Shown here piece after piece: positions 6,876 through 15,883 of a stretch of 32,254 nucleotides of DNA. Position 1 is the stretch's first letter, and each line of letters begins with the position of its first letter. A program made the translations under genes and the position numbers. A model generated the notes under the pieces. It worked only from the letters and a program-made list of their open reading frames with translations. It was not told the origin of the DNA and ran no database searches. The DNA is taken from assembly GCA_030592845.1 (NCBI GenBank), contig JAUVII010000017.1, forward strand, positions 1-32,254. The letters are read 5' to 3'. This DNA comes from Candidatus Krumholzibacteriia bacterium. GTDB lineage: Bacteria; Krumholzibacteriota; Krumholzibacteriia; LZORAL124-64-63.

Positions 6876-6941
6876 TTTGGAGAGCTTATTGAAGAACAGG
6901 TTCGGGTGCACCGGGACAGGTGGATCCAGGAAGGACGACTC

Positions 6942-7376
6942 ATGAACAAGAGCCAGAGCCCCAGCAATCCCTCCGACGAGAAAATCCGCGAGATCCTCGG
7001 CGCCATGAAGTGCGTGGCCGTCGTGGGAGTTTCGGCCAAACCCGACCGGGCCAGCCACGGCATCGCCCGATTCCTGGTTGGCCAGGGGTTTGATGTCGTC
7101 GGAGTCAATCCCGTCCTCAAGGAAGAAGTCCTGGGCATCAAGGTCTATGAGTCATTGACCGATGTTCCCGGGTCCATCGACGTGGTGAACGTCTTCCGGC
7201 GGAGCGAAACCGTGCCGCCGGTCGTGGACGGAGCCATCGCCATCAAGGCCAAGGTCGTGTGGATGCAGGAGGAGGTCGTTCATGAAGAAGCCGCGGCCAA
7301 GGCCCGCGACGCAGGCCTCGAGGTCATCCAGGACCGCTGCCTCTACAAAGAGTGGCTGCGGCTGATGAACGGCTGA
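6942..7376 (+). CDS. CoA-binding (YccU-type) Rossmann protein
   Basis: 144 residues from ATG 6942, with AGGAAGG 8 nt upstream; an in-frame ATG at 6906 has no such site. It is a stand-alone CoA_binding domain: an N-terminal Rossmann strand CVAVVGVSAKPDRASHGIARFL, then GFDVVGVNPVLKEEVLGIKVYESL, VPGSIDVVNVFRRSETVP and VVWMQEEVVHEEAAAKARDAG. These match the small YccU/YneT family related to the CoA-binding domain of succinyl-CoA synthetase, whose cellular role is unclear. First gene of a plus-strand operon; the SDR gene starts 4 nt after its stop. Nothing links it functionally to nucleotide sugars beyond co-transcription. Confidence 0.9.
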   Translation: MNKSQSPSNPSDEKIREILGAMKCVAVVGVSAKPDRASHGIARFLVGQGFDVVGVNPVLKEEVLGIKVYESLTDVPGSIDVVNVFRRSETVPPVVDGAIAIKAKVVWMQEEVVHEEAAAKARDAGLEVIQDRCLYKEWLRLMNG

Positions 7377-7380
7377 CCGG

Positions 7381-8439
7381 ATGAACGACTTCAAGGCCAA
7401 CGAGTTTTTCCACCGTCCGTGCAACCTGGTCACCGGGGCCCTTGGTTTTGTGGGCGGACACCTGGTTCGCAGCCTGGTGATGGCCGGCCATCCGGTGGTG
7501 GGGCTGGACCGTTACACCGGGGACAACAACCTCCCGAAGACCGTCGGGCCCTTCGCTCTGTCCGGGCCGGCGGCCGACTGGCCGGGGGCCATGGTCTACA
7601 CCGCGGACTTCGGCAGTTTTTTCTATGTGCCCTGCCCCCTCGAGGATCCGGATCCGGTGGCGGTGTTGCTGGACCGCCTCCGCCCCACAATGGTCTACCA
7701 CCTGGCAGCCCAGAGTTCCGCCGCCGTTTCCTACCGCGATCCCGCCGGCACTTTTTCCGCCAACGTGCAAGGCACCCTGAATCTTCTCGAAGCGGTGCGC
7801 GCCATCCCCGACGTGGAACGGCCGGTGGTATTGTCGATCGGCTCCTGCGAGGAATACGGCCCCCAGCCTGAAGATGCCTACCCGCTGCGGGAGGACACCG
7901 CCCTGAATCCGGTATCCCCCTACGGCGTGAGCAAAGTCGCCCAGACACTTCTTTGCCGGCAATATGTCCGTTCGTATGATCTGCCCGTGGTCATGACGCG
8001 TTCCTTCAGCCACACCGGCCCGGGTCACGATACCCGGTTCGCCTTCCCCAGTTTCGCCCGCCAGATCGCCGCGGCCGAAGCGGGCACAGGGCCTGCTGAA
8101 ATCGTTACGGGCGATCTATCGCCGGTGCGGGATTTTCTCGATGTCCGCGACGTCGTGGCCGCCTACCGCCTTTTGCTCAAGGAAGGGCGCCCGGGAGAAA
8201 TTTATCACGTAAGTTCAGGGATTCCTTTGACGATAAGCCAAGGACTCGAGATATTGGTGGGCAGCGCGAAATGCCCCATATCCATCCGCCGTGATCCTGG
8301 GCTTTGCCGGCCCTCGGATACTCCGTTCATGGTGGGTGACAGTTCCAAATTGCGACGGGATACCGGGTGGGAACCCGAGTGGGAAATAAAGAACACACTC
8401 ATTGAGCTGCTGGACGCGGCCCGAAAGGAATTTCAATGA
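7381..8439 (+). CDS. NAD-dependent nucleotide-sugar epimerase/dehydratase (RMD/GMD-like SDR)
   Basis: 352 residues. It is an extended short-chain dehydrogenase with the Rossmann motif GALGFVGGH (residues 19-27), YHLAAQSS, the catalytic Tyr181-x3-Lys185 (YGVSK), and a Ser in LSIGSCEEYG. The C-terminal half (SFSHTGPGHDTRFAFPSFARQ, GDLSPVRDFLDVRDVVAAY, GEIYHVSSG) most resembles GDP-4-keto-6-deoxy-mannose reductases and GDP-mannose 4,6-dehydratases, so a GDP- or UDP-sugar substrate is likely, but it could be another NDP-hexose reductase. The start is 4 nt after the upstream stop, with no strong ribosome site, which suggests translational coupling. It overlaps the UDP-glucose dehydrogenase gene by ATGA. 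Likely supplies a sugar for surface glycans. Confidence 0.85.
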   Translation: MNDFKANEFFHRPCNLVTGALGFVGGHLVRSLVMAGHPVVGLDRYTGDNNLPKTVGPFALSGPAADWPGAMVYTADFGSFFYVPCPLEDPDPVAVLLDRLRPTMVYHLAAQSSAAVSYRDPAGTFSANVQGTLNLLEAVRAIPDVERPVVLSIGSCEEYGPQPEDAYPLREDTALNPVSPYGVSKVAQTLLCRQYVRSYDLPVVMTRSFSHTGPGHDTRFAFPSFARQIAAAEAGTGPAEIVTGDLSPVRDFLDVRDVVAAYRLLLKEGRPGEIYHVSSGIPLTISQGLEILVGSAKCPISIRRDPGLCRPSDTPFMVGDSSKLRRDTGWEPEWEIKNTLIELLDAARKEFQ

Positions 8440-9761
8440 TTCGAATCTGCATGGTGGGCACCGGATACGTCGGCCTGGTATCAGGGGCGTGCATGGCCGA
8501 CTTCGGCCACCGCGTGACCTGCGTGGACATCAACGAGGAACGCATCAAGGGCCTGGTCAAGGGTGTCATCCCCTTTTACGAGCCGGGTCTTGATCGTTTG
8601 GTCCTGAAGAACGTCGAAGAACAGAGACTGTTTTTCACCACCGACCTGGCGGAAGGCATGAAAGACGCCGACATCGTTTTCATCGCCGTCCAGACCCCCA
8701 TGTCCGAGTCAGGGGAAGCGGACCTGAAGTACGTCATGAAGGTCGGCGAGGAAATCGGTGAACTTCTCGACCGCTACATGGTGGTCGTCACAAAAAGTAC
8801 CGTTCCGGTCGGGACCAACCGCACTCTCCAGAAAGTCATCGCCTCCAGGCTGAAGGCCGACGTGGAGTTCGACATGGCCAGCAATCCCGAATTTCTGAGG
8901 GAAGGCTCCAGCATCGAGGATTTCATGCGCCCCGACCGTGTGGTCATCGGTGTCGAGACGGACCGTTCCGAGGAATTGATGCGTGAGATCTACCGGCCGC
9001 TGTACCTGAGCGACACCCCAATGGTCAGGACCGGCATCGAAACCGCCGAACTGGTCAAATACGCTTCCAACAGCTTCCTGGCCGTGAAGATCTCCTTCAT
9101 CAACGAGATCGCGAAACTGGCCGAGGCCGTGGGCGCCGACGTTTTCGACGTGGCCAAGGCCATGGGGCTGGACAAACGCATCGGCCGCAAGTTCCTGCAT
9201 CCGGGCCTTGGTTTCGGCGGCAGCTGCCTGCCCAAGGACACCAACGCCATCGTCCACATCGCCCAGGAGGCCGGCAGCGAAATGTCCATCGTCAAAGCGG
9301 CCATCGAGGTCAACCGGGACATCCCCGGACGGGCCATCGCCAAGGCCGAAAGGCTGGTTGGGGACCTGTCGGGGAAAAACGTGGCTCTGCTGGGTCTTGC
9401 ATTCAAACCCAACACCGACGATATCCGCTCTGCCGCCAGCCTCGACCTGGTCGACCTCCTGAAGGCCAAAGGCTGCCGTCTGACGGCCCACGACCCGGCC
9501 GCCATGGAGAACTTCAAGCAGGTTCATCCTGACCTCGGTTACTGCCAATCACCTTACGAAGCCTGTGAGGGCGCCGACCTGGCCATCCTGGTTACCGAAT
9601 GGAACCAGTACCGCCAGCTCGACTTCAACTGGCTGGCCGAGGCCATGGCAGGAAAAGCTTTTCTGGACTGCCGAAACGTGTATGATCGTCCGCATCTGGA
9701 AAAATTCGGTTTCAAGTACGACTGTTTCGGCCGGGCGGATCACTCCTCCCCCGCCAGTTGA
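8436..9761 (+). CDS. ugd: UDP-glucose 6-dehydrogenase
   Basis: 441 residues, the usual length. It oxidises UDP-glucose to UDP-glucuronate with two NAD+. Visible are the dinucleotide motif GTGYVGLVSGACMADFGH, STVPVGT, NPEFLREGSSIEDFMRPDRVV, the ELVKYASNSFLAVKISFINE helix (Lys208), and the active-site loop GFGGSCLPKD with catalytic Cys264. The C-terminal UDP-binding domain carries GLAFKPNTDDIRSA. The start overlaps the SDR stop as ATGA, and the aminotransferase starts 7 nt after the stop, so the three are co-translated. UDP-glucuronate is a precursor for uronic-acid capsules, exopolysaccharides or amino-uronates. Confidence 0.96.
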   Translation: MIRICMVGTGYVGLVSGACMADFGHRVTCVDINEERIKGLVKGVIPFYEPGLDRLVLKNVEEQRLFFTTDLAEGMKDADIVFIAVQTPMSESGEADLKYVMKVGEEIGELLDRYMVVVTKSTVPVGTNRTLQKVIASRLKADVEFDMASNPEFLREGSSIEDFMRPDRVVIGVETDRSEELMREIYRPLYLSDTPMVRTGIETAELVKYASNSFLAVKISFINEIAKLAEAVGADVFDVAKAMGLDKRIGRKFLHPGLGFGGSCLPKDTNAIVHIAQEAGSEMSIVKAAIEVNRDIPGRAIAKAERLVGDLSGKNVALLGLAFKPNTDDIRSAASLDLVDLLKAKGCRLTAHDPAAMENFKQVHPDLGYCQSPYEACEGADLAILVTEWNQYRQLDFNWLAEAMAGKAFLDCRNVYDRPHLEKFGFKYDCFGRADHSSPAS

Positions 9762-9768
9762 GGAAATC

Positions 9769-10911
9769 ATGTCTGCAAAAAACGACAAGCGGGTTGGCCG
9801 CTACGACCTGATCACGCCCATGCTGCCCTGCAAGGACGAGATCATGGAAAAATTCGAGAAGTTTCTCATGTCCGGGAATTACATCCTGGGCGAGGAAGTG
9901 CGTCTGCTCGAGGAAGAGCTGGCAGCGGCCTGCGACGTGGTCGATGCCGTTGGCGTCGCCTCGGGATCCTCGGCCCTGTTCGTCGCCCTGGCCATGGCCG
10001 GCGTCCGTCCGGGCCACGAGGTCATCACCACTCCGTACACTTTCGACGCCACCATGGAAGCCATCATCCTGCTGGACGCGGTTCCGGTTTTCGTGGACAT
10101 CCGTCCCGAGGACCTGAACATCGATCCCGGCCTGATCGAGGCGGCCATTACCCCCAAGACGAGGGCCATCATGCCGGTGCCCATCTTCGGGGCTCCGTGC
10201 GACATGGATCCCATCAACGAGATTGCCGCCAAACACGGCCTGGAAGTGGTCGTGGACATGGCCCAAGGCTACGGCACCCTGTACAAAGGCCAGGCCATGG
10301 GCTCCTTCGGCCGCATGAGCACCCTGAGTTTCTACCCGACAAAAAACCTGCCCGGCATCGGAGACGGCGGCATGGTCCTGTGCCGCGATCAGCGGGACGC
10401 CGACCGGATCCGGAAAATCCGCGCCCACAAGGCCGTCCGGGCCAACGACCGTCTCTACACCGGCTGGAACAGCCGGCTTGACGAAATCCAGGCCATGGTC
10501 ATCCGGATCCGTCACGGCCGCTTCAACGAAGAGCAGGGCGACCGCGACCAGGTGGCGGCCATCTATGACAGCTACATCCCCGAGGCCCATCGCCTGCAGT
10601 ACCCCATTGGAAAAGAGGGCATGAAAGTGACCCATCACCAATACTGGGTCCGGTGTACGCAACGCGACAAGCTGCGGGACCTGCTGGATGATAACGGGAT
10701 CGACACGGCCATCTTCTACGATCCTCCCCTGCACCGTCATGAACTGGCGGAGTACGTTCGCACCGGCAGCGACATGACCGAAGCCGAACGGGCCGGCCGG
10801 GAGGTTCTGATCCTCCCCGTCCATGCCGCCCTTCCCTTCGAGGACGCCCACCGCGTCGGAAAAATCGTTCAGGATTTTTTGGCGGTTGAAGAAAAAACCG
10901 CCAGCAACTAG
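9769..10911 (+). CDS. DegT/DnrJ/EryC1-family sugar aminotransferase
   Basis: 380 residues from ATG 9769 preceded by GAGGAA; a longer in-frame reading from 9565 runs antiparallel in coding sense over ugd and has no support. It is a PLP-dependent transaminase of nucleotide keto-sugars: GNYILGEEVRLLEEELA, GVASGSSALFVAL, HEVITTPYTFDAT, then VVDMAQGYG (Asp163, Gln166) and STLSFYPTKNLPGIGDGGM, where Lys192 should form the PLP Schiff base. The C-terminal domain has YWVRCT and FYDPPLHRHE. With the SDR and ugd it suggests an amino-sugar or amino-uronate for a surface glycan. The exact sugar cannot be read from sequence. Confidence 0.93.
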   Translation: MSAKNDKRVGRYDLITPMLPCKDEIMEKFEKFLMSGNYILGEEVRLLEEELAAACDVVDAVGVASGSSALFVALAMAGVRPGHEVITTPYTFDATMEAIILLDAVPVFVDIRPEDLNIDPGLIEAAITPKTRAIMPVPIFGAPCDMDPINEIAAKHGLEVVVDMAQGYGTLYKGQAMGSFGRMSTLSFYPTKNLPGIGDGGMVLCRDQRDADRIRKIRAHKAVRANDRLYTGWNSRLDEIQAMVIRIRHGRFNEEQGDRDQVAAIYDSYIPEAHRLQYPIGKEGMKVTHHQYWVRCTQRDKLRDLLDDNGIDTAIFYDPPLHRHELAEYVRTGSDMTEAERAGREVLILPVHAALPFEDAHRVGKIVQDFLAVEEKTASN

Positions 10912-10929
10912 GAAAAAGCGAGGTTCGGT

Positions 10930-12054
10930 TTGAAGTCCAGGGTCATCAGTTTCGGCAGTCTTGCTTCTCCCCTTGCCAGAAACCAGACCCAGGCCGTCAT
11001 CGATCGCATCCAGGAGCGCCAGCCCCGCCTGACCTGCCAGTTGAACATCTGGGATTCGCCTATCAGCAAGGTGGCCAAGGCCGACGAACCGTTTGTCGCG
11101 GCCAGCCGTGGTGAAATGGAATTCCTGGAGCAGCAACTGGTCAACGAACAGGCCCGCCTCGTGGTGGTTGAAGCCGCCGACATGGTCCTGCCACTTCCCG
11201 AGGGCATCGCGGTCATGTGCGTACCTGACCGGGCAACCCCTTTTGACGCCTACCTCAACCGCCAGGGCCTAATCATGGACGAAATGGACCCGGGCTGCTG
11301 CGTCGGTGTCCTTTCCATGCGGTCGCGGTCCCAGATGCGATCGCGGTGGCCGGACATCTCCTTTCGGATACTCCGCGGAGGTGTTGACCAGGCCATGGAA
11401 ATCCATATGCGGCTGTCCGAAATCGATGGCCTTGTTCTGCCCGCCGCGGTCACCGAACATCTCGGCATCCAGGGAATCGTCGCTGAAATCTTCGCCCCCG
11501 AATTCATTCTGCCGGGACCGGGACAAGGCACCCTGGTGGTCCTGGGCCGCAGCAACGACATGGAGGCCAGGGAACTATTGGCCGATCTCCATTCAGCGGA
11601 CACGGCGGTCGAGCTGGAAACCGAGCAGGCCTTTTGCCGGCGCATGATTTCCGACCAGGACCTTCCCGTCGGCGCCCTGGCGCGGGTTGCGGATGACGAA
11701 GTCGTCATCACCGGCACCACCGGACCGGGAACCAAACGCATCGCCGTCAACGGGGAAATCCATGAGGCGGAGGCCGTGGGCAGCGGTCTCGCCGAGCAGA
11801 TTCTCTCCCGCGGAGAATCCTTCGCCGATCTTCTGGAAGCTGATTTCCCCGACGGGCTGCCCGACGAAAACAATGAGGACGTCTCCATCCTCGAGGAAGT
11901 CCCCGGGGATTCCGACGACACCGACGACGACTGGGATCTGGACGAACTTGAAAACCTGAAAAAGCTGGAAGATCTGGCAGGCATCGAGAAAAAACCCGCC
12001 GGGGCCGATGACGAGGATGACGAAGATATCGATTACTTCAACAACGAAGATTGA
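10930..12054 (+). CDS. Degenerate HemC (hydroxymethylbilane synthase) homologue with acidic tail
   Basis: 374 residues from TTG 10930 with GCGAGG upstream; no ATG gives full domain 1. Residues 1-300 align by eye across all three domains of porphobilinogen deaminase: ASPLARNQTQAVIDRI, DSPISK, LVVVEAADMVLPLPEG, GCCVGVLSMRSRSQM, FRILRGGVD, VLPAAVTEHLGI, ILPGPGQGTLVVLGR, TEQAFCRRM and LPVGALARV. Using E. coli numbering, Asp84, Arg131 and Arg149 are kept. Arg11, Lys59, Lys83, Arg132, Arg155 and Arg176 are replaced. The dipyrromethane cofactor Cys242 falls on Gln243 (SDQDLPVG). An Asp/Glu-rich tail (about 305-374) is added. So it should not make hydroxymethylbilane; a binding or regulatory role is possible but unknown. 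Last gene of the nucleotide-sugar operon, 18 nt after degT, convergent with pyrD across 6 nt. Confidence 0.75.
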   Translation: MKSRVISFGSLASPLARNQTQAVIDRIQERQPRLTCQLNIWDSPISKVAKADEPFVAASRGEMEFLEQQLVNEQARLVVVEAADMVLPLPEGIAVMCVPDRATPFDAYLNRQGLIMDEMDPGCCVGVLSMRSRSQMRSRWPDISFRILRGGVDQAMEIHMRLSEIDGLVLPAAVTEHLGIQGIVAEIFAPEFILPGPGQGTLVVLGRSNDMEARELLADLHSADTAVELETEQAFCRRMISDQDLPVGALARVADDEVVITGTTGPGTKRIAVNGEIHEAEAVGSGLAEQILSRGESFADLLEADFPDGLPDENNEDVSILEEVPGDSDDTDDDWDLDELENLKKLEDLAGIEKKPAGADDEDDEDIDYFNNED

Positions 12055-12060
12055 TCCGGA

Positions 12061-12978
12061 TCACACACCCGCCAAATCTTTCGCGATGCGCGCCGCAGTG
12101 AAGGGATCACGCATCTGGGCCGTGCCCACCTGGACGGCAACAGCTCCGAGCGCAAAAAATTTCAAGGCGTCCCGGTCATTTCCGATTCCCCCCACCCCGA
12201 CCACCGGAACCTTCGCCCGGGTAATGATTTCATCAACCTTTGCCAGGGCAATGGGGCGGATCGCGGGTCCCGAATACCCCCCGAATCTTCGGGGCAGGAC
12301 AGGCCTTCCCGATTTCAGATCCACTTCCAGCCCGACCACCGTATTGATGGCGCTGACCGCATCAACCCCGGCGGCGGCCGCGGCCGTGGCCAAGCCGCTG
12401 ATGTCGGTAACATTCGGGGTCAGCTTGGCCAACAGGGCGCGGTCGGGAAGGTATTCCCTGGCGGCCCGGACACAAGCGGCCACCGTGTCGGGATCCCTGC
12501 CGAAATCGTGCCCGCCCTCGGCAACATTGGGGCAACTGAGATTGATCTCCACCCCATGCCAGTGGACAAAGCCCACCGCGGCCTGGTGCAACCGGGATAC
12601 CATGTCTCCGAATTCTTCCGGACGCGTAGCGGCAAGACTGACCACCGTGGGAACACCCATCTCTTCCAGAGCGGGCAGGGTTTTGGCCAGAAACTCCTCG
12701 AAACCCACATTTTCCAGACCGATGCTGTTCAGGGCCCCTTCGTTGGTTTCCACCAGGCGCGGCATGGGATTGCCCGGGCGGGCCTGCGGTGTCACGGTCT
12801 TGGTGACCACGGCCCCGACACCCTGATAGGGCGATGAAAATCCCTCGGCTTTCATCTCGTGGCCGGTCAACCCGTAGGCAAAACATCCGGACGCTGTCCA
12901 GATGCGTCCGGGAAATTGACGTGGCCCCAGAGTGAAGGGTTCGGTGGGGTCGATGGTCCACCAGCCAGGAAGTGACAA
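12061..12978 (-). CDS. pyrD: Dihydroorotate dehydrogenase, catalytic subunit (class 1B)
   Basis: 305 residues from TTG 12978, with AGAGGAA 7 nt upstream; no ATG is available nearby. FMN-dependent oxidation of dihydroorotate to orotate, with NAD+ as acceptor when partnered with PyrK. Motifs: ASGCFAYG, GVGAVVTKTVTPQARPGN, ETNEGALNSIGLEN, HGVEINLSCPN, KLTPNVTDI, INTVVGLEVDLKSG, FGGYSGPAIRPIAL, VPVVGVGGI and AVQVGTAQM. The pyrK gene lies 32 nt upstream on the same strand, which is diagnostic of the heterotetrameric class 1B enzyme. Last gene of the pyr operon; it meets the HemC-like gene tail to tail with no terminator between them. Confidence 0.96.
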   Translation of the reverse strand: MSLPGWWTIDPTEPFTLGPRQFPGRIWTASGCFAYGLTGHEMKAEGFSSPYQGVGAVVTKTVTPQARPGNPMPRLVETNEGALNSIGLENVGFEEFLAKTLPALEEMGVPTVVSLAATRPEEFGDMVSRLHQAAVGFVHWHGVEINLSCPNVAEGGHDFGRDPDTVAACVRAAREYLPDRALLAKLTPNVTDISGLATAAAAAGVDAVSAINTVVGLEVDLKSGRPVLPRRFGGYSGPAIRPIALAKVDEIITRAKVPVVGVGGIGNDRDALKFFALGAVAVQVGTAQMRDPFTAARIAKDLAGV

Positions 12979-13873: not shown

Positions 13874-15883
13874 TCAACGGAGGAAATCCCAGTTCTCATC
13901 CTTTTTCTTCTTCTTTTCATCCTCTTCCTTTTCTTCTTCCTCTTTTTTCTTTTCCGCATCCTCGTCCGTCGTCCCGTCAACAACCTCTTCCGGGGCTCCC
14001 TCCGGTCCCGCCCCGGTACCGGCGGCCCCCATATTTTCATCCGTGATGACAGGCGGGGCTCCATCGGGCAAATTCTCGGTTCCCGCACCGGTCACCGCCC
14101 GCAGGGAATCAGCCGTGGCCTGGGCCTCCAGGTCCTTGACTGCCGCCTCAAATGCCTGAGTCTGCCTGGTCTGGGCGGCCTGGACAGCCATTTGAGGCGG
14201 TTCGAACAGGATATTCGCCCGGCGTGACAGATAGACCATGCGCCGGCGGACACCGGCCATCTCCTGGGTCATGCCGACCAGGGAAGAGCTGAAATCGGTT
14301 TTCTCGATGAGAGCCTCCCTCTCTTCGGGAGTGAGGTTCGAGTACCGTTCCAACTGCTCGGCTTCCTGCCGGGCCAGCAGATATCCCAGAAGGTTGCTGT
14401 CCTGGTTGGTCCGGATCTCGAAGGCCTGGGGAGACCCGGGAAATCTTTCTTCCAGTTCCCTGGAGAAGATTGCCGCCGAATCGGGTTTTTCAAGATACCG
14501 GTCATAGGTGATGTAAGCGCCGTACAGGGCGCGGGCGGCCGCCGTACTGTCGGCCGCGGTATCGGCGGCCGCCCGGACATAGAGATGGACGGCAACCGCG
14601 GGTTTCTCGAAACCAAACAGCATGGCGTTTGCCTGGAGGATCAACAGGCCGGGGATCCGTTCGGGGCTGGCATCGGGCAGTGCGATGTCCGCCGCGAGAT
14701 AGTCCTTGAGGTTGTCATTGAGGCGCCTGGTACGGTCCTCATCGTCAAGCTCATCACGTCTGAGAATGGCTGTCTGGAATTTGGCCCTGGCCTCTTCCAA
14801 TTCTCCGCGTTCGATGTAGAGGTAACCGAGCAGATCCGATGCGCGGGCCTTGACCGCGGGAGTCTCCCATTCGGTCGGCATACTCTCCAGCAAAGGTGAC
14901 GCATCGTCACCTTTTCCCTGGGAAATCAGGCTTTCCGCCTCTACCAGGAGGACCTCTCCCTGGGACTTGTAAATCCCTGCCTGATCCCTCAGCTCCACCA
15001 GCAGAAGGTCGGCCATCTCGAAGTCCCCCATGCGCACGTGCACCCGGGCCCTGAGCAGCTTTGCCTGGAAACCCAAATCCGCGCTTGATGTTTTGTCGCT
15101 GACCTCCTGGAGAACCTCCGCCGCGACCGGATAATCCTCCATTTCCCAATAGCACTCCGCCAGCTTCAAGCCGATCCGGTCCCTTTCCTCGATATCGGAA
15201 TCAAGCTCCAGATAGGCGCGGTAGTTTTCCGCCGCCACCTCCCAGTCCTCCAGGGCAAAGGAGTTGTCGCCGCTCACCTTCCGCGTTTCGGCCTGGTAAC
15301 CGCTTTCCGGATAGAGTTTCGCCAGACGATCGAGGTATTCCTGGCTGCGGCCCAGAGCTCCGATCAGGAGGTAATCCAGGGCGGTCAGGTACAGGGCTTC
15401 TTCGAGATAGGGAGTCTGGGGAAAGTTGGTGAACAGCAGGTCGAACTTGCGAATGGACATCCGGTACGATTCAAGCCGGAAGTAGGCTTTCGCCTGGAGA
15501 AACAGGGCGTCATCGGTGAGGTCGTGGCCCGGATATTCGTCCAGGACCTTCTGGGCTTTCTTGATGGCGCTTTCGTATTCCGCCTTCTGGGTACCGACCG
15601 GTGTGGGCGGATCCTTATGCTGGCGGATGGCCTCCTCCCTGACATGTTCCGCGCTGTCGAAGTTTTTCTGGGCGTTGTAAAACGTATTGTATTTGGCGCA
15701 GCCGACCAGAAACACGATCAGGACCAGCGCTCCCGTGGGCCACAACAGCCGGGGCGTCCTGTTTCGCGGACGGATTGACCCCTTCAGGCAGGTGGTTTCC
15801 GGCACCCTCCGGCCTCCATCAGGCAAACCCGCATCCTCAAGGGAGGAAGTCCTGGAATTGTAACTATTCTGAGAATTCACCAC
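13874..15883 (-). CDS. Large TPR lipoprotein inside the pyr operon
   Basis: 669 residues from GTG 15883, with GAAGG upstream. About 45 polar residues precede the hydrophobic segment LVLIVFLVGC; the lipobox Cys is near residue 62, so this is a lipoprotein with an unusually long n-region, or the true start is downstream. After CAKYNTFYNAQKNFDSAE it contains at least eight BamD/YbgF-like helical repeats to about residue 520: EYPGHDLTDDALFLQAKAYFR, LFTNFPQTPYLEEALYL, a LALGRS-like series, YLELDSDIEERDRIGLKLAE and so on. The last 70 residues are low-complexity Glu/Lys ending in NWDFLR. Probably an outer-membrane-anchored periplasmic scaffold. It lies 101 nt after pyrC and 5 nt before pyrK, an unexpected place for it. 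The function is unknown. Confidence 0.85.
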   Translation of the reverse strand: MVNSQNSYNSRTSSLEDAGLPDGGRRVPETTCLKGSIRPRNRTPRLLWPTGALVLIVFLVGCAKYNTFYNAQKNFDSAEHVREEAIRQHKDPPTPVGTQKAEYESAIKKAQKVLDEYPGHDLTDDALFLQAKAYFRLESYRMSIRKFDLLFTNFPQTPYLEEALYLTALDYLLIGALGRSQEYLDRLAKLYPESGYQAETRKVSGDNSFALEDWEVAAENYRAYLELDSDIEERDRIGLKLAECYWEMEDYPVAAEVLQEVSDKTSSADLGFQAKLLRARVHVRMGDFEMADLLLVELRDQAGIYKSQGEVLLVEAESLISQGKGDDASPLLESMPTEWETPAVKARASDLLGYLYIERGELEEARAKFQTAILRRDELDDEDRTRRLNDNLKDYLAADIALPDASPERIPGLLILQANAMLFGFEKPAVAVHLYVRAAADTAADSTAAARALYGAYITYDRYLEKPDSAAIFSRELEERFPGSPQAFEIRTNQDSNLLGYLLARQEAEQLERYSNLTPEEREALIEKTDFSSSLVGMTQEMAGVRRRMVYLSRRANILFEPPQMAVQAAQTRQTQAFEAAVKDLEAQATADSLRAVTGAGTENLPDGAPPVITDENMGAAGTGAGPEGAPEEVVDGTTDEDAEKKKEEEEKEEDEKKKKKDENWDFLR

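Follow-up and report, generated by a model that had tools for sequence, protein, structure and literature searches.

HemC, the hydroxymethylbilane synthase, generally serves as an indicator that an organism makes tetrapyrroles. Its cofactor Cys carries a covalently bound dipyrromethane primer (PMC3945110, PMC8561815), and its residues 100-104 and 194-199 form the interdomain hinges (PMC3945110). In the human enzyme, R116 and E250 (E. coli R101 and E231) are joined by a salt bridge, which also holds Gln217 (E. coli Q198) in place, and Q198 of the E. coli protein adjoins the loop containing site 180 (PMC10577081). A literature search of open-licence PMC papers found no HemC pseudoenzyme or relevant HemC paralogue. 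Inactive paralogues that control metabolic enzymes have been described in other systems, including the trypanosomatid prozyme of AdoMetDC (PMC5201418) and a dead deoxyhypusine synthase paralogue (PMC3663545).

The window analysed here, a stretch of 32,254 nucleotides from a Candidatus Krumholzibacteriia bacterium, contains a gene for a HemC-like protein, named HemCp in this work. Like HemC (TIGR00212, PF01379/PF03900), HemCp has a three-domain fold and the hinge residues R101, P194, G199 and E231 (E. coli numbering), as well as Asp84 in the family of the window (f1). It differs from HemC in lacking the cofactor Cys and most cationic substrate-binding residues, in its sub-cut-off TIGR00212 score, in its glycan-operon context and occurrence without a detected haem pathway, and in having an acidic tail and a new E176/Q181/E186/E228 signature. 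HemCp resembles the dead regulatory paralogues in being an apparently inactive paralogue under selection. However, those paralogues regulate their own active homologue (PMC5201418, PMC3663545), whereas HemCp persists also in genomes left without an active HemC. Domains 1-2 of HemCp share the topology of the type II periplasmic-binding-protein (PBP) fold, which is found in substrate-binding proteins, regulator effector domains and Thi5, although the match is weak and HemCp has the extra HemC domain 3. Unlike periplasmic binding proteins, HemCp has no apparent signal peptide, and its first strand begins at residue 5.

The HemC-like gene and its operon

HemCp lies at the end of an operon that includes nucleotide-sugar genes, with the following features in and around it:

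6906..7376, + strand: CoA-binding domain protein (PF13380), operon member upstream of HemCp
7381..8439, + strand: NAD-dependent nucleotide-sugar epimerase/dehydratase (GDP_Man_Dehyd family)
8436..9761, + strand: UDP-glucose/GDP-mannose dehydrogenase (Ugd)
9763..10911, + strand: DegT/DnrJ/EryC1/StrS aminotransferase, directly upstream of HemCp with an 18-nt gap
10920..10923, + strand: GAGG, possible ribosome-binding site 6 nt 5' of the HemCp TTG (from sequence)
10930..12054, + strand: HemCp, encoding a putative HemC-like pseudoenzyme of 374 aa, with a TTG start
11227..11247, + strand: HemCp residues 100-106, first hinge between domains, R101 and P104 invariant across the class (alignment; hinge limits from PMC3945110)
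11455..11487, + strand: HemCp residues 176-186, class-wide new signature E176-x4-Q181-x4-E186, unconserved in canonical HemC
11611..11625, + strand: HemCp residues 228-232, E228-x3-E232, first domain-3 helix (alignment; PMC10577081)
11650..11661, + strand: lost dipyrromethane-cofactor Cys site, E. coli C242 replaced by Gln in an SDQD turn, residues 241-244
11827..11862, + strand: DLLEADFPDGLP motif, HemCp residues 300-311, conserved in f1 only
11863..12051, + strand: acidic C-terminal tail of HemCp, residues 312-374, mostly disordered, predicted helix 337-349
12061..12978, - strand: pyrD, convergent with HemCp, marks the operon end; conserved in f1

No alternative in-frame start for HemCp occurs across 37 codons.

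A sequence-only reading of this DNA had proposed that the protein covers the full three-domain HemC fold, and structure prediction bears this out. When an AlphaFold2 model of window HemCp (mean pLDDT 89.8, pTM 0.81) was compared using Foldseek, the best 32 PDB matches were all HemC, with a target TM of about 0.75-0.89. After a gap came type II PBP-fold proteins, at E about 4e-8. Matches to this fold, Thi5 among them, were weak (E about 1e-8 to 1e-10), and its two-lobed hinge form is present in domains 1-2 of the predicted structure. The model of a distant f6 HemCp (pLDDT 93.3, pTM 0.91) likewise matched HemC, with a TM of about 0.9. By sequence, PF01379 scored 91.6 bits over residues 7-214 of window HemCp (cut-off 22.1), the C-terminal domain PF03900 was sub-threshold at 17.8 (cut-off 26), and the matching PDB chains were HemC, led by 1PDA at 2.9e-30.

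Against the NCBIfam equivalog TIGR00212, window HemCp reaches 131.8 bits, below the cut-off of 164. Two Cys-less HemCp narrowly pass this cut-off, namely L102:6933-7853 (165.9 bits) and L084:6499-7398 (170.3 bits), the second of which belongs to f4, a family that yielded no haem-pathway gene. Automatic annotation would therefore call such members hydroxymethylbilane synthase, and will credit haem synthesis to organisms without it.

Lost chemistry and independence from haem synthesis

Residues were compared in an alignment of E. coli 1PDA, 29 canonical Krumholzibacteriota HemCs and 61 HemCp. The Cys at site 242 is present in 29/29 canonical HemC and in 0/61 HemCp, so that no homologue with an intact cofactor Cys came to light within the family. 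Without this Cys, HemCp cannot hold the covalent dipyrromethane primer. In E. coli numbering, window HemCp has lost Cys242, Arg11, Lys59, Lys83, Arg132, Arg155 and Arg176 and keeps Asp84, Arg131 and Arg149; the alignment agrees on every one of these positions with the sequence-only reading, and adds the loss of Lys55 and Arg232, which that reading had not listed. Within f1, conservation is 34/34 for Asp84, 33/34 for Arg131 and 17/34 for Arg149. Retention of Arg149 was accordingly rejected as a diagnostic, and its presence in window HemCp is non-diagnostic. Outside f1, site 84 is D/E in 18/27 copies, including all f4 and f5, and in 0/7 of f6 and f8; Asp84 was therefore rejected as a class-wide catalytic residue.

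Ten cationic catalytic sites were also scored (R11, K55, K59, K83, R131, R132, R149, R155, R176 and R232). The mean number occupied by K/R is 9.1 in canonical HemC, 5.8 in f4, 3.7 in f6 and f8 together, 2.6 in f3, 2.0 in f5 and 1.7 in f1. The f4 copies (e.g. L084:6499-7398) keep 4-8/10 of these sites, lack the Cys and occur with no detected haem pathway; of all HemCp they may lie nearest to the pseudoenzyme as it first arose.

As to whether the host has a second, intact hemC, another contig in the MAG of the window encodes a canonical HemC, which scores 233 bits against PF01379 and heads a separate hemC-hemD-hemB cluster. HemA, HemB, HemD and canonical HemC were not found in any f3, f4, f7 or f8 genome searched, nor in G050 (f5) or G021 (f1), the sole HemD-family match in G021 being below the cut-off. 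The genomes without the haem pathway are MAGs, but the pathway is missing consistently from family to family, also in MAGs of at least 95% completeness. Twenty-three of the genomes with no detected HemA, HemB, HemD or canonical HemC retain HemCp. This persistence indicates that the job of HemCp is not tetrapyrrole making, and its retention without canonical HemC excludes acting as a HemC regulator or partner as the conserved function. One f6 genome (G047; L117, L118) has two canonical HemC in addition to HemCp, together with two HemB and two HemA.

By these comparisons, HemCp belongs to the HemC superfamily without being a hydroxymethylbilane synthase: it has neither the cofactor Cys nor the full cationic set, its score stays under the equivalog cut-off, and it occurs also where the haem pathway was not found. 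It has the hallmarks expected of a pseudoenzyme, namely homology to an enzyme, loss of an essential catalytic residue and a reading frame under selection.

Distribution, gene order and new constraints

A PF01379 search of 80 Candidatus Krumholzibacteriota genomes in eight families identified HemCp in 68/80 genomes and in seven of the eight families (f1 37/38, f3 15/20, f4 4/4, f5 4/4, f6 6/6, f7 1/5, f8 1/1, f2 0/2). These counts cover Krumholzibacteriota, and a contig scan with the window protein reaches close relatives only. In f2, a Ugd-Epi-WecB-WecA cluster is present without HemCp. Clean losses in G044, G073 and G063 left WecA and SerS adjacent; four f3 genomes (G061, G064, G067 and G071) were rejected as true losses, as their contigs end at SerS and the absences may be assembly gaps. 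In the tree, a single branch (100/100) splits 59 HemCp from 27 canonical HemC and E. coli. The dN/dS of close HemCp pairs is about 0.07-0.33, the same range as canonical HemC, and the intact reading frame claimed for the window protein holds across dozens of independent assemblies. A candidate DegT-HemCp fusion in G003 (730-aa ORF) was discarded because about 360 residues at its start come from reading through in the wrong frame, with DegT in another frame just upstream.

The position of HemCp among sugar genes is conserved, with neighbours that vary between families. In f1, the order is CoA-binding protein, epimerase, Ugd, DegT and HemCp, then convergent pyrD, with DegT immediately upstream in 28/28 loci. 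In f3, f5, f6, f7 and f8, a WecA-type glycosyltransferase is directly upstream in 23/23 loci, usually preceded by Wzx, WecB, epimerase and Ugd. In f4, WecB or Ugd lies upstream in 3/4. On the 3' side, HemCp in f3, f4, f6, f7 and f8 is followed by SerS, a histidine kinase, a receiver-PglZ (PorX-like) protein and TsaE; SerS begins 5-85 bp after HemCp in 21/23 of these loci, and the other two are contig edges. This SerS-HK-PorX block is elsewhere in f1 and f5, where HemCp remains with the sugar genes, so what every family shares is the sugar-nucleotide/glycan-initiation side.

Near-invariant across the class are R101, P104, P195, G200 and E232, which are shared or nearly so with HemC, E232 corresponding to the residue with which R101 forms its salt bridge in HemC (alignment, PMC10577081). 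Near-invariant too are residues unconserved in canonical HemC, namely E176 (61/61), Q181 (58/61), E186 (61/61) and E228 (58/61). Hinge positions are conserved above the rest in f1, in f3, in f4, in f6 and f8 taken together, and in all non-f1 copies pooled. The near-invariance of hinge and signature places the constraint on the hinge and its surroundings, and by analogy with published HemC structures E176, Q181, E186, E228 and E232 would form one surface with the hinge. The old substrate-contact positions, taken from a published list, exceed the rest in conservation in f1, f4 and f5, with letters that differ from HemC; in f1 the new fixed letters include N151G, R155A, A170P and G241D. These positions are not above the rest in f3 or in f6 and f8 together. 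Such a pattern would fit a pocket re-specified lineage by lineage, but the f1 signal (p 0.014) is of modest size, and a new active site would account for it equally.

The C-terminal Asp/Glu-rich segment noticed in the window protein is real, and is conserved in kind in f1 and f5 only. HemCp of f1 has DLLEADFPDGLP, then a disordered acidic tail (44% D/E, 4% K/R, median 58 aa in the alignment), and f5 has an acidic tail of its own with 36% D/E. The tail is absent in f3, f4, f6 and f8, where the proteins end soon after domain 3. This restriction indicates that the tail was added there and was not part of the ancestral HemCp function. Ugd and DegT of the window are not unusually acidic. A short tail helix motif (LExxAG-like) was rejected as a class-wide feature, with only 8 f1 members matching. 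Elsewhere in the window, positions 13874-15883 (minus strand) encode a large tetratricopeptide-like protein with a long alternating Lys/Glu tail at its end.

Possible functions

The sequence-only reading had proposed a repurposed binding protein rather than decay. Judging by orthology, selection, context and haem-less retention, the repurposing is strongly supported: HemCp forms a class-wide orthologous family under purifying selection, its place in the operon is conserved, and genomes with no detected haem pathway retain it. None of the three findings that the reading had named as counting against it turned up, since the predicted fold is HemC, no family member has the cofactor Cys, and a second, intact HemC is present. 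The binding part of that proposal is better put as a suggestion. Recent decay of a hemC, an emerging pseudogene or an error of assembly would explain the lost catalytic residues, but is scarcely credible given the intact frame in so many assemblies, the low dN/dS, the single ancient origin and the new invariant residues.

We give about an even chance to HemCp being an ancient HemC paralogue that has lost its chemistry and become a non-catalytic accessory protein for surface-glycan precursor synthesis, of a sensor or adaptor type. Its molecular role, we infer, would be that of a ligand-sensing or adaptor protein resembling a periplasmic binding protein placed in the cytosol. Domains 1 and 2 may close around a small ligand that differs between lineages, most likely an intermediate of the sugar-nucleotide or polyprenyl-sugar type, and the hinge and its surroundings (R101, E176, Q181, E186, E228 and E232) would relay the ligand state to a neighbouring enzyme, putatively DegT/Ugd in f1 and WecA elsewhere, with the acidic tail joining in this relay in f1 and f5. 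The clean losses, with WecA and SerS left side by side, are easier to square with an accessory function than with one essential to the pathway. Against the glycan reading, gene-order conservation can outlive functional linkage, and HemCp is equally close to SerS in f3, f4, f6, f7 and f8.

The main rival is a new enzyme, in which the HemC/PBP-type cleft would be re-engineered for a nucleotide-sugar or glycan reaction with Asp84 still serving as catalytic acid/base. Several PBP-II-fold proteins are enzymes, which lends this idea some weight, as do Thi5 among the next fold matches, the invariance of Asp84 in f1 with D/E at 18/27 elsewhere (all f4 and f5 included), and the above-average conservation and new fixed letters of the contact positions in f1, f4 and f5. 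However, the lack of D/E at site 84 in f6 and f8 (0/7) and the clean gene losses from otherwise intact operons in G044, G073 and G063 together tilt against an indispensable catalytic step, and contact positions do not exceed the rest in f3 or in f6 and f8 together. We rate a new enzyme as rather unlikely, if a serious contender. HemCp might instead merely sit in a conserved housekeeping superoperon, with a role tied to SerS, the HK/PorX-like regulator or general physiology. The short distance to SerS in 21/23 loci, with the HK-PorX block behind it, speaks for this, but in f1 and f5 that block moved away while HemCp stayed by the sugar genes, and the upstream neighbour in f1 switched to DegT, again a sugar-nucleotide gene; we consider it decidedly improbable. 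Lower still is our estimate for HemCp binding haem, a porphyrin or a precursor and tuning tetrapyrrole supply, for example as a HemC decoy. Its HemC ancestry and the 4-8/10 cationic sites kept in f4 would suit this very unlikely role, but most carboxylate-binding residues are gone, HemCp adjoins hem genes in none of the loci examined, and it is retained in the 23 genomes without a detected haem pathway. HemCp could still conceivably bind imported haem.

HemCp is probably the first HemC-derived family with a non-tetrapyrrole function, ancestral to most Krumholzibacteriota, whether as a sugar-nucleotide-to-WecA glycan-initiation sensor/adaptor or as a wholly new enzyme. A fold that has left haem metabolism and is tied to envelope-glycan genes through most of the class, even in lineages that yielded no haem-pathway genes, is a good subject for work on how enzyme folds are re-used.

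A separate observation concerns a class-conserved block of SerS, histidine kinase, receiver-PglZ (PorX-like), TsaE, TsaB and RimI, often followed by a PNP-family protein. This block, found at L102:7886-14694 and also in L108, L168, L174-L177 and L181, joins a T9SS-type regulator with tRNA-modification genes.
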